12,097 nucleotides of DNA, from contig JALOPC010000032.1 of NCBI GenBank assembly GCA_025454095.1, positions 1 through 12,097 of the forward strand, read 5' to 3'. This stretch comes from Syntrophales bacterium (GTDB lineage Bacteria > Desulfobacterota > Syntrophia > Syntrophales > UBA2192). The notes below the pieces were generated by a model. It was given only the letters and a program-made list of their open reading frames with translations. It ran no database searches and was not told where the DNA came from. This document shows positions 8,003 to 10,594 of the stretch, one piece after another. The position numbers and the translations under genes were made by a program. How positions within the stretch are numbered: position 1 is the first letter of the stretch; each line of letters starts with the position of its first letter.

Positions 8003-8027
8003 CAAGAGAAAAATCTCTTGACAAGAG
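8003..8027 (+). promoter_or_regulatory. Palindrome centred on the ilv -35 element, possible operator
   Basis: CAAGAGA (8003-8009), AAAA, TCTCTTG (8014-8020), A and CAAGAG (8022-8027) make two overlapping dyads. CTCTTG-A-CAAGAG is a perfect 13-base palindrome that contains the TTGACA -35 hexamer. A repressor bound there would block RNA polymerase. The binding protein is unknown, and chance symmetry around TTGACA is possible. Confidence 0.4.
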
Positions 8028-8046
8028 CCCGGTTTTATTGCATAAG
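8018..8046 (+). promoter_or_regulatory. Sigma70-type promoter of the ilv leader-ilvBNCD operon
   Basis: The perfect -35 TTGACA (8018-8023) is separated by exactly 17 bases from CATAAG (8041-8046). The expected start is near 8053, giving an attenuated leader RNA of about 160 bases up to the first terminator. A weaker copy with the same geometry, TTGACC-17-CATAAA, lies before ilvD. Confidence 0.72.
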
Positions 8047-8078
8047 GGGCCTCGTTTTCACCCACTGGAGAGGATTTC

Positions 8079-8162
8079 ATGATCCGTCAGATTATTTCGA
8101 GCTTCCTGGTCGTCGTTGTCGTCGTCATCGTACAGGCGGGGACCGCAGCTCGCACTCTCTGA
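8079..8162 (+). CDS. ilvL: Branched-chain amino-acid leader peptide of the ilv attenuator
   Basis: This is a 27-residue cis-acting peptide gene. Its ATG at 8079 has a strong GGAGAGG site (8067-8073) 5 bases upstream and it ends at TGA 8160-8162. Codons 10-18 read Leu, six Val, Ile, Val without interruption (8106-8132), and Ile also occurs at positions 2, 5 and 6. A ribosome short of charged Val, Leu or Ile tRNA would stall there. The arrangement matches the principle of the enterobacterial IvbL and IlvL leaders, although the sequence is different. It lies about 27 bases after the expected transcription start and 137 bases before ilvB, and overlaps the pairing segments described next. The peptide itself probably has no function after it is made. 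Confidence 0.85.
   Translation: MIRQIISSFLVVVVVVIVQAGTAARTL
8098..8152 (+). promoter_or_regulatory. Protector (1:2) hairpin of the ilv attenuator
   Basis: CGAGCT (8098-8103) pairs perfectly with AGCTCG (8147-8152), and GGTC (8108-8111) with GACC (8141-8144). The first arm contains the Leu10 and first Val codons, so a ribosome stalled there would prevent this stem. It sequesters the arm needed for the antiterminator. Confidence 0.65.
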
Positions 8163-8195
8163 TGGAAACATAGAGCAAAACGAGCCGCGGCCCCC
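8138..8195 (+). promoter_or_regulatory. Antiterminator (2:3) of the ilv attenuator
   Basis: GGGGACCGCAGCTCG (8138-8152) can pair with CGAGCCGCGGCCCCC (8181-8195) at 13 of 15 positions, with two A-C mismatches. This uses the whole 5' arm of the first terminator. A ribosome paused at the leader stop (8160) should cover part of the 8138-8152 arm and favour termination. Confidence 0.7.
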
Positions 8196-8213
8196 GAAAG
8201 ACCGCGGCTTTTT
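8183..8213 (+). terminator. First intrinsic terminator (3:4) of the ilv attenuator
   Basis: AGCCGCGG (8183-8190) and CCGCGGCT (8202-8209) form a perfect 8-bp stem with an 11-base loop, followed by five T (8209-8213). It lies after the leader peptide stop and before ilvB, as expected for an attenuator. Confidence 0.85.
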
Positions 8214-8229
8214 CGTACCGAAAAGCCGC
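8204..8229 (+). promoter_or_regulatory. Second-tier antiterminator (4:5) linking the two terminators
   Basis: The 3' arm and T-run of terminator 1, GCGGCTTTT (8204-8212), are perfectly complementary over 9 bases to AAAAGCCGC (8221-8229), the 5' arm of terminator 2. Two more pairs (8214-8215 with 8219-8220) extend the stem across a bulged T. No T-run follows, so this stem would not terminate and would disable terminator 2. It excludes both flanking terminators. Confidence 0.6.
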
Positions 8230-8255
8230 AACGGAAAAGCGTTCGCGGCTTTTTT
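8221..8255 (+). terminator. Second intrinsic terminator (5:6) before ilvB
   Basis: AAAAGCCGC-AACG (8221-8233) pairs with CGTT (8240-8243) and GCGGCTTTT (8245-8253), a 13-bp stem with one bulged C and a six-base loop, ending in six T (8250-8255). It lies 28 bases before the ilvB ribosome binding site. A tandem second terminator is unusual in an amino-acid attenuator. Confidence 0.82.
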
Positions 8256-8298
8256 GTTGTCATCATCCTTATTCTTCGTGATCGGAGGAGGTAGTCCC

Positions 8299-9989
8299 GT
8301 GAAAATGAAAGGAACCCAGATCTTGCTCGAGTGCCTGAAGGCGGAAGGCGTGGACGTCATGTTCGGATACCCCGGCGGGTCCGTCATCGACATCTACGAC
8401 GAGCTGCACCGCAACCCCGCCGTCAAGCACATCCTGGTCCGCCACGAGCAGGCGGCCGTGCACGCCGCCGACGGCTACGCCCGCGCGACGGGGAAGGTCG
8501 GCGTGGCCCTGGCCACCTCCGGCCCGGGGGCCACGAACACCGTGACCGGCATCGCCACGGCGAACATGGACTCCATCCCCATCGTCGTTTTCACGGGGCA
8601 GGTCCCGACACATCTCATCGGCAACGACGCCTTCCAGGAGTGCGACATCACGGGCATCACCCGGCCCTGCACCAAGCACAACTACCTCGTCCGCAACCCC
8701 GACGAGCTGGCCGGCACCATCCGCGAGGCCTTCCACATCGCCCGCACGGGCCGTCCCGGGCCGGTGCTCGTCGACCTGCCGAAGAACGTCATCGCCGCCG
8801 AGGTGGACTACGACCCGGCCAAGATCCGGATCGACTCGACCCGGCTGTCGCTTCCGCCCAAGCCCTCCTCCAAGAAGTACGTCCAGCTCCTGGAGATGCT
8901 GAGGGCCGCAAAGCGGCCCATGCTGATGACAGGCGGCGGCATCCTGCTGGGCAAGGCGTCGGAGGAACTGCGGTCCTTCGCCCGGAGGGCCAAGCTCCCG
9001 GTCACGTCGACCCTCATGGGCCTCGGCGCCTTCCCGGGCTCGGACCCGCTCTTCCTCGGCATGCCGGGGATGCACGGCACCTACTTCGCCAACATGGCCA
9101 TCAGCCACTGCGACCTGCTCATCTGCATCGGCGCCCGCTTCGACGACCGCGTGACGGGCAAGCTCGAAACCTTCGCCTCCAACGCCCAGATCATCCACGT
9201 CGACGTGGACCCCTCGTCGATCAACAAGAACATCGTCGTGGACCTGCCGATCGTGAGCGACGCGAAGAGCGCCCTGGAGAACATCAACCGCCTGCTCAAG
9301 GACAACAGCTACACGGCCACCGACGCGGAGCGCAAGGACTGGCTCGAGCAGATCGAGTCGTGGAAAAAGAAGGCGCCCCTGTCCTACTGCCAGGATAGCG
9401 AACACATCAAGCCCCAGTGCGTCATCGAGACGCTCCACGAAATCACGAAGGGCAAGGCCATCATCACCACCGAGGTGGGCCAGAACCAGATGTGGGCGGC
9501 CCAGTTCTACCGCTACGACGACCCCAACACGTTCATCTCCTCGGGCGGTCTCGGGACGATGGGCTACGGATTCCCGGCGGCCATGGGCGTGAAGCTCGCT
9601 TTCCCCGACCGGATCGTCGTGGACATCGCCGGCGACGGCAGCATCCAGATGAACATCCAGGAGATGGCCACGTGCATGCAGTACAAGATCCCCGTGAAGA
9701 TCGTCCTGCTCAACAACGGCTATCTCGGCATGGTCCGCCAGTGGCAGGAGCTCTTCTACGAGAAGCGCTACTCCAACACGGACATGACCTTCCAGCCCGA
9801 CTTCGTGAAGGTGGCCGAGGCCTACGGCTGGCAGGCCCTGCGGGCGCGGTTCTCGAGCAGGGGCTCTTCACCGACCGGCCCTGCCTCATGGACTTCCAGG
9901 TGTCCCGCGAGGAGTGCGTCTACCCCATGGTGAGGCCGGGGGCCTCCATCAGCGAGATGACGCTGGGGACGCGGGAGATGACGAACTGA
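8299..9989 (+). CDS. ilvB: Acetolactate synthase large (catalytic) subunit, frameshifted near its 3' end
   Basis: This ThDP- and FAD-dependent enzyme condenses pyruvate with pyruvate or 2-ketobutyrate, the first shared step of Val, Leu and Ile synthesis. I choose GTG 8299 because GGAGGAGG (8284-8291) lies 7 bases upstream; ATG 8305 is the alternative. A frame open back to 8116 merely crosses the attenuator. The catalytic glutamate E50 is in RHEQAA, and the ThDP/Mg motif runs from GDGS (445-448) to NN (472-473). The frame is good to about residue 515 (AYGWQALR, base 9841). The family-like C-terminus, with PCLMDFQVSREECVYPMV, then continues in another frame from about 9846 to TGA 9987-9989. About 10 codons with a net loss of 3n+1 bases appear to be missing. 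Uncorrected, translation stops at 9933 (544 residues). Confidence 0.92.
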
Positions 9990-10108: not shown

Positions 10109-10594
10109 ATGGACAAGAAAGAAAACGTCATATCCCTGCTCGTCAACAACAAGCCCGACGTTCTGGCCCGGGTGGCAGGGACCCTCGGCGGCAAGGGGTA
10201 CAACATCGAGACGCTCTGCGTGGACGTCACGATCAACCCCGACGTCTCCAAGATCATCCTCACCACGATCGGCACCAAGGCGACGGTGCAGAAGATCGAA
10301 GCGCAGCTCGCGCGGCTCATCGACGTCATCAAGGTGGAGAACCTCACCGACGTGGAGACGGTGAAGCGGGAGCTCGTGCTGATCCGCATGAGCCTCACGG
10401 CGGACAACAAGAACGAATTGATCCGGAGAATCAACCAGCTCAACTGCAAGATCCTGACCTTCAACTCGGACCACTGCGTCCTGGAGTTCAGGGGAAGCAA
10501 GGCGGAAGTCGACAAGGTCCTGGAGACCCTGAAGCCCCTGGGCATCGACGACATCGCCCGGACGGGCATCGCCGCGCTGGAACGCAAGAACTGA
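10109..10594 (+). CDS. ilvN: Acetolactate synthase small (regulatory) subunit
   Basis: The protein activates IlvB and confers feedback inhibition, usually by valine. Its 161 residues match the longer IlvN/IlvH type. An N-terminal ACT domain begins ENVISLLVNNKPDVLARVAG (residues 5-24) with GKGYNIETL after it, and a C-terminal domain runs from about residue 85. The ATG at 10109 follows AAGGAAGG ending 9 bases upstream. It is third in the leader-ilvB-ilvN order. The 119-base gap from ilvB, holding a G-rich tract, is longer than the tight spacing often seen for ilvBN. No lesion is visible. Confidence 0.96.
   Translation: MDKKENVISLLVNNKPDVLARVAGTLGGKGYNIETLCVDVTINPDVSKIILTTIGTKATVQKIEAQLARLIDVIKVENLTDVETVKRELVLIRMSLTADNKNELIRRINQLNCKILTFNSDHCVLEFRGSKAEVDKVLETLKPLGIDDIARTGIAALERKN

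Follow-up and report, generated by a model that had tools for sequence, protein, structure and literature searches.

A tandem-terminator ilvB leader with a conserved helix between its terminators

Can a single stalled ribosome open two transcription terminators in series? The question is raised by the leader upstream of ilvB in the window, the whole 12,097-nt stretch of Syntrophales DNA analyzed here (contig G000:C281 of a 377-contig assembly). Attenuation in its textbook form uses four RNA segments and one terminator, and the E. coli trp, ilvGMEDA and ilvBN operons have leader-peptide attenuators in which alternative 1:2, 2:3 and 3:4 hairpins control a terminator before the first gene. The leader in the window likewise has a peptide rich in the regulated amino acids, the 1:2, 2:3 and 3:4 alternatives and a terminator ahead of the first gene, but it adds a second, downstream terminator and a conserved helix between segments 4 and 5. 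We put at roughly 0.6 the probability that it controls the ilvBN operon by ribosome-mediated transcription attenuation at two serial terminators, the 4:5 helix acting as a relay to terminator 2 (T2). The leader belongs to no Rfam family above threshold: Rfam 15 gives two matches in the window at E ≤ 1, both on the other strand and far below the gathering threshold, and 0 of 22 matches in 10 relatives exceed the threshold.

The original prediction came with the remark that its author knew of no described six-segment version. Literature term searches agree, yielding no coupled leader of this kind and, for the phylum, no described attenuator of this kind, which is weak evidence, with most subscription papers beyond reach. 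A caveat is the ermK leader of Bacillus licheniformis, cited in PMC4335068 as having two adjacent Rho-independent terminators. By that citing description, on which our comparison draws, ermK shares the leader peptide, the stalled ribosome and the two serial terminators, but it senses an antibiotic and is found in Bacillus. Because of this two-terminator precedent, we regard the present leader as a variant of ribosome-mediated attenuation and not as a new kind. In the accessible portion of PMC2965389, the rimP leader has a second terminator in tandem, one of them with a possible antiterminator; the additional terminator sits upstream and has an inverse motif, and no leader peptide is named there. 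The C. glutamicum ilvBNC operon has a three-hairpin attenuator, and thus also an ilv leader with a chain of hairpins, but as excerpted from PMC11857589 its third hairpin is an upstream anti-antiterminator and there is one terminator.

Anatomy and predicted folding of the leader

The predicted layout of a ribosome-mediated ilv attenuator with two terminators is supported by the leader ORF, the helices and the ilvB gene downstream (Table 1). The TTGACA hexamer, -35-like by comparison with the promoter consensus, and CATAAG form a promoter-like pair ahead of the leader ORF. The putative leader peptide is a short ORF in which a run of regulated-amino-acid codons (VVVVVVIV, 8109-8132) and the stop codon (8160-8162) lie close to the hairpins. 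Stems 3:4 and 5:6 are predicted intrinsic terminators upstream of the ilvB start at 8299, terminator 1 (T1) with a tail of U5 followed by C (8209-8213) and T2 with U6 (8250-8255). On reading, the ilvB frame is interrupted toward the 3' end of the gene, where the ORF at 8116-9933 finishes in an unrelated tail, and the expected C-terminus seems to be carried on in the overlapping ORF 9417-9989, through either a sequencing error or a real frameshift.

Table 1. Features of the leader and of the genes downstream of it, in window coordinates.
Feature	Position	Strand	Basis or remark
-35-like TTGACA	8018..8023	+	sequence; same in 6/6 aligned genus leaders
-10-like CATAAG, spacer 17 nt	8041..8046	+	6 aligned genus leaders; CATAGG in L003, otherwise unchanged
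Shine-Dalgarno-like GGAGAGGA, leader peptide	8067..8074	+	sequence
Leader peptide ORF MIRQIISSFLVVVVVVIVQAGTAARTL, stop TGA 8160-8162	8079..8162	+	translation
Control codons Leu, Val x6, Ile, Val	8106..8132	+	translation
Segment 1	8098..8111	+	partner 2 (folding)
Segment 2	8137..8152	+	partner 1 or 3 (folding)
Segment 3	8181..8196	+	partner 2 (antiterminator) or 4 (terminator 1) (folding)
Segment 4 (T1 3' arm; coupling-helix 5' arm)	8202..8213	+	folding, pair counts
Terminator 1 (T1, 3:4) with U5	8182..8213	+	folding, pair counts
Segment 5	8220..8233	+	partner 4 or 6
Coupling hairpin 4:5 (putative second-tier antiterminator)	8204..8229	+	-14.8 kcal/mol; covariation
Segment 6	8240..8254	+	partner 5 (folding)
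Terminator 2 (T2, 5:6) with U6	8220..8255	+	folding, pair counts
Shine-Dalgarno-like GGAGGAGG, ilvB	8284..8291	+	sequence
ilvB, acetolactate synthase large subunit, GTG start 8299	8299..9933	+	TIGR00118 755.9 bits over 8299-9798; ORFs
ilvN, acetolactate synthase small subunit	10109..10594	+	TIGR00119 135.9 bits

All six segments lie where they had been predicted, and the 1:2, 3:4 and 5:6 stems are present both in the sequence and on folding. ViennaRNA energies are -24.0 kcal/mol for 1:2, -33.2 for 2:3, -16.8 for 3:4, -14.8 for 4:5 and -19.3 for 5:6. The perfect 9-base complementarity claimed for segments 4 and 5 is confirmed: GCGGCTTTT (8204-8212) pairs with AAAAGCCGC (8221-8229), and a U.G pair (8213/8220) extends the helix. 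The 2:3 antiterminator also exists, with the small correction that 13 of 15 positions are paired over 8138-8152/8181-8195, leaving two A.C mismatches, while 7 further pairs extend the helix inward (8157-8175).

With nucleotides up to 8135 blocked, a mask that mimics a ribosome on the Val run, 2:3 forms (P = 0.93) and 3:4 does not (P = 0) at transcript length 8213; the antiterminator and T1 are mutually exclusive in masked folding of the window. Helix 4:5 then reaches P = 0.77 at 8233-8240, once segment 5 has been made. At 8255 the probability of 5:6 is 0.01, yet that of 4:5 is 0.02; here 5:6 gives way to another structure, with segment 4 paired to the T2 loop and to segment 6. At 8300 P(4:5) is back to 0.73. 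For a ribosome at the stop codon, P(3:4) is 0.94 at 8213 and P(5:6) is 0.75 at 8255 and 0.96 at 8300, and a mask to 8155, between both states, reproduces the behavior of the fed state. Without a stall (no ribosome, or a ribosome at the stop codon), 4:5 replaces 3:4 at equilibrium at lengths 8233-8247, so the helix is not stall-specific at equilibrium; 3:4 and 5:6 return at 8255.

From this anatomy we infer the following sequence of stalling, folding and effect on T2. In fed cells the ribosome would reach the stop codon, segment 2 would not be free for segment 3, and 3:4 would terminate transcription, any leak past T1 being caught by 5:6. On starvation for Val (Leu, Ile), a ribosome stalled on the Val run would allow 2:3 to form and T1 would fail, as in the classical step. 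The freed segment 4 would fold onto segment 5 as soon as the latter is transcribed and before segment 6 exists, and with 4:5 in place T2 might be weakened or lost, presumably for kinetic reasons. T2 is the only terminator that 4:5 can influence, because segment 5 is made after RNA polymerase passes T1.

Tandem leaders in the order and beyond

The leader peptide, 2:3, T1, T2 and 4:5 are kept in all five fetched congeners (L003-L007, ilvB 92-94% identical), each of which has an equivalent of the leader peptide. A sixth congener (G001, 77% complete) gives only a weak ilvB match and no match to R1, a covariance model of T1-T2 built from 33 ilv leaders with the 3:4 and 5:6 pairs and without the 4:5 pairs. 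Another member of the same family, G007, matches R1 at 1e-4 and lies outside the examined set. The AAAGCCGC..GCGGCTTTT stem core occurs in 7 distinct places (11 matches listed) in 7 genus genomes, 4 of them being the same T2, and the swapped core occurs in 3. A favorite terminator stem shared across the genus was considered and rejected on these counts.

Across the order, R1 matches 148 of 155 genomes at E ≤ 0.01 and 142 at E ≤ 1e-4. The class search used these same 155 genomes (142/155 at E ≤ 1e-4) and so adds no taxa. Because the ilv leaders behind R1 all carry GCCGC cores, the model under-samples those with other cores. A strict motif, requiring GCGG in both 3' arms, finds both terminators in 57 of 90 ilvB upstream regions, and GCCGC, which the motif does not require, is present in segment 5 of all 57. 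Three more regions (L142, L146 and L161) read as looser tandem versions. By reading, 25 of the remaining 30 regions have a single terminator with a CCGTTACC..GGTAACGG-type stem; L013 has too little upstream sequence, and no clear leader is seen in the ilvB upstream regions of L023, L164, L170 and L171. In a hairpin scan of 80 named ilvB loci, 79 showed nothing comparable to the tandem leader within 420 nt, the exception being L032.

The single-terminator leaders form another type of ilv leader within the order, with one CCGTTACC-type stem or its variants CCGTTGCC and CCGCTGCC (L017, L029, L031, L147-L150 and L152-L160). They resemble the leader of the window in preceding an ilvB and in having an Ile/Val-rich peptide where one is found, and differ from it in that no second terminator is seen. 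Genomes with such a leader at one ilvB often carry a tandem leader before a second ilvB-like gene.

The same layout is found at other operons. A further 78 R1 matches (60 + 18) were fetched within the order, of which 17 have Trp-rich leader peptides (WWW or WWWW: L255, L261-L266, L268-L274 and L276-L278). Most of these show a TrpE-like start downstream, and trpE is the following gene where visible. In most of these leaders the cores of T1 and T2 are both GCCGTG and not GCCGC. Five more have Phe-rich leaders (L259, L260, L267, L275 and L279), followed where visible by what reads as a LivK-like transporter protein; three short N-termini of these genes gave no profile match. The other 56 were counted as ilv from their leaders, an ilvB-like start being visible in most.

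R1 matches at E ≤ 1e-6 occur in 37 of 395 phylum genomes, 13 of which belong to the order, and matches were fetched from 20 of the 24 others. Of these 20, all but L298 read as leaders (19, L280-L297 and L299), and for 17 the gene that follows could be named: leuA (L280, L286, L289), ilvB (L283), trpE (L284, L291, L292, L295), DAHP synthase (L282, L290, L294, L297, L299) or ADTH synthase (L281, L285, L287, L288). Profiles confirm leuA for L286, ilvB for L283, trpE for L292, ADTH synthase for L285 and DAHP synthase for L282, L290 and L294, and PF04715 places TrpE directly downstream of L266, L284, L291 and L295; the remaining names come from reading N-termini. Neither L286 nor L289 has a clearly Leu-rich peptide, and no gene is assigned to the Trp-rich leaders of L293 and L296. 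The 4:5 duplex reaches -16 kcal/mol or better in 15 of the 20 matches.

In a motif-free trpE sample, the best 30 loci included 10 with a Trp-rich peptide by scan. Two terminators are present in L306, L313 and L317, L326 was read as tandem, and one terminator is present in L303, L312, L314, L318, L324 and L328. In L313 the T2 stem is altered to GUUGUGGA:UCCACAAC, with 4:5 retained through two G.U pairs.

Competition between 4:5 and terminator 2

The original prediction had 4:5 leaving segment 6 without a partner, so that T2 fails. Its first half is borne out by folding. Under the stall mask, 130 of 136 leaders form 4:5 ahead of the synthesis of segment 6, and with segment 3 sequestered 57 of 57 strict leaders do so (P ≥ 0.97). 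The second half is less secure: once segment 6 is present, 5:6 is back at equilibrium under the mask (P ≥ 0.7) in 88 of 136 leaders, and it lies above P = 0.5 in 32 of the 57 strict ones; of 6 leaders of the window's genus, it stays below P = 0.5 in 2. In 82 of 137 leaders 5:6 is more stable than 4:5, and T2 switches at equilibrium in 29 of 136. T1 switches in 59 of 136 leaders with one fixed mask, failing to do so in all three trp groups. L258, for which no leader was found, was dropped from this masked folding, and L251 did not parse.

If T2 does fail on stalling, the cause would have to be kinetic. The direct-path barrier from 4:5 to 5:6 has a median of 6.9 kcal/mol over 137 leaders (range 3.0-12.5, 80% within 4.6-9.1), with group medians of 4.3 to 10.9 kcal/mol. 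The window's genus, which has an AACG:CGTT toehold, lies near the low end with a median of 4.9 kcal/mol (range 4.2-6.6); families f15 and f4 are lower. With an assumed displacement prefactor of 10^6-10^7 per second, displacement is estimated to take roughly milliseconds or less in the genus and tens of milliseconds at the median barrier. By this estimate it would be comparable with nucleotide addition only at the median barrier, and not in the window's genus. We note that segment 6 carries one unpaired base (C, G or T) at position 8244, between the upper and lower T2 stem, in 6 of 6 aligned genus leaders; this base could slow the displacement of segment 4 by segment 6.

An alternative is that 4:5 is transient and is displaced by 5:6 through branch migration before the termination decision, leaving T1 as the only regulated terminator; T2 would then be a constitutive damper and set the ceiling on output. 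Both the return of 5:6 at equilibrium in 88 of 136 leaders and the barrier medians (6.9 kcal/mol over 137 leaders, 4.9 in the genus) fit such a scheme. We nevertheless consider it unlikely. Given the footprint of RNA polymerase, segment 6 emerges no earlier than about the termination point, so that displacement has little time, and a damper gives no reason for the covariation of 4:5 described below.

Covariation between segments 4 and 5

Could the 4:5 complementarity simply be inherited from the two terminators? Among 53 distinct leaders, the native 4:5 helix averages -15.30 kcal/mol, compared with -13.22 when arms are exchanged across families (permutation p 0.0002), and the effect holds within family f14 (p 0.03). 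No loss is seen on swapping for 3:4, 5:6 or 3:6. The arms exchanged were 13 nt long and cover nothing beyond the core and its outer side. When each of 46 groups is represented by one leader, the values are -17.31 native and -15.72 swapped, the native one being lower in all 400 draws; this set includes shortened arms (L289, L297, L299 and L326), an unintended L317 pair and the non-leader L298, while L291 (without a pair) was dropped.

Covariation scores agree with the swaps. In 33 ilv leaders, 4:5 scores 0.159 against 0.099 for shuffled alignments (0/500), 3:4 scores 0.094 against 0.083 (11/500) and 5:6 scores 0.086 against 0.085 (208/500). In 64 leaders from several operons, the 4:5 score is 0.211 against 0.161 (0/500), and those of 3:4 (0.269 vs 0.174) and 5:6 (0.300 vs 0.192) are also above all 500 shuffles. 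For example, 4:5 pair 43-82 is GC in 39 of these leaders, AU in 14, GU in 11 and unpaired in none. Permutation tests leave relatedness in, and the measures least inflated by it, the counts of pair changes and pair types, do not exceed shuffles for 4:5: pairs changed on both sides number 2 vs 1.6 and further pair types 8 vs 7.7 in the 33 ilv leaders, and 6 vs 4.6 (89/500) and 14 vs 15.5 (490/500) in the 64 leaders. For 5:6 in the 64 leaders, both counts do exceed shuffles.

Individual sites were also compared, in a numbering whose core positions p=0..7 are partly fixed by the parsing pattern. At p=8 in family f14, segment 5 pairs with segment 4 only in 25 of 36 leaders and with segment 6 only in 4. 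Here the U-tract of T1 is broken by the G in segment 4, and the base opposite that G in segment 5 (C in 22 leaders, U in 3) costs T2 a pair, so neither terminator accounts for these bases. At p=-1 in family f13, where a base is gained in segment 5, it pairs with segment 4 only in 11 of 12 leaders and with segment 6 only in 0. Over all 123 distinct leaders, the balance is that expected for a T2 stem, with 12 pairing with segment 4 only vs 65 with segment 6 only at p=-1, and 4 vs 47 at p=-2. The covariation signal rests on few lineage-level changes. The outcome named beforehand as refuting, related leaders that keep 3:4 and 5:6 and lack covariation in 4:5, did not arise: covariation in 4:5 is seen in the scores, the swaps and the f13 and f14 sites, but the pair-change and pair-type counts do not rise above shuffles. 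On these sequence comparisons, 4:5 appears to be kept by covariation beyond what 3:4 and 5:6 explain.

This bears on the idea that the leader is a classical four-segment attenuator with an independent back-up terminator, T2 being a copy of T1 and 4:5 a by-product of the shared stem. The GCCGC/GCGGC core is indeed common to T1 and T2 in the 57 strict ilv leaders (the GCGG half by construction), no tandem leader with unlike cores is found among the other 33 ilvB regions, 5:6 is stable alone, and at p=-1 and p=-2 over the 123 leaders segment 5 more often sides with segment 6. Against this idea, segment 5 tracks segment 4 and not segment 6 at the informative positions of f14 and f13, and T1 and T2 retain the 4:5 bases although their loops and upper stems show no apparent relation. 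Most trp leaders changed the cores of T1 and T2 together (to GCCGTG), L313 held 4:5 by its two G.U pairs while 5:6 changed, and few terminators of the genus have this core. The covariation weighs against an independent back-up terminator, a reading we rate slightly below the already unlikely damper.

It is very unlikely that 4:5 is itself a third terminator or a pause hairpin and not an antiterminator. The suggestion comes from f14, where the helix looks terminator-like because segment 5 runs straight into a U-rich stretch, mostly U5C, in 41 of 41 ilv leaders, with 4:5 energies of -9.6 to -17.7 kcal/mol. As a general role it was rejected, such a run being confined to the f14 ilv leaders and found in 0 of 96 other parsed leaders, the window's included; moreover, a biosynthetic operon that terminated during starvation would defeat its purpose. 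A post-transcriptional role of 4:5 in the stability or processing of read-through mRNA would suit the close energies of 4:5 and 5:6 in many groups but leaves the tie of the helix to two-terminator leaders unexplained, and we give it hardly any credence.

We retain the relay reading for the window. Its extension to a phylum-wide class of attenuators at Val/Ile/Leu, Trp and Phe/Tyr operons, in which one stall flips the chain of helices from 1:2 to 5:6 and opens both terminators, 4:5 is under compensatory selection of its own and the design is reused across operons, has in our judgment a little better than an even chance of being right. If one stall does switch two terminators through a relay helix, leaders could be built as cascades with lower leak, in which a tight off-state equals the product of two leak rates and the on-state is not lost. 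The natural variants in cores, energies, barriers and the U-run lineage amount to a mutation series for testing cotranscriptional strand displacement, and the leaders supply regulatory annotation for amino-acid operons of the phylum.

Tandem hairpins outside leaders have weak 4:5 complementarity, with a median of -7.2 kcal/mol in 17 pairs vs -15.6 in 128 leaders, in a small control that includes four pairs from trp leaders (L313, L317 twice and L326) plus L322 near trpE. The tandem hairpins of L322 have an unrelated GGGGC core and a 4:5-type complementarity of -16.5 kcal/mol.
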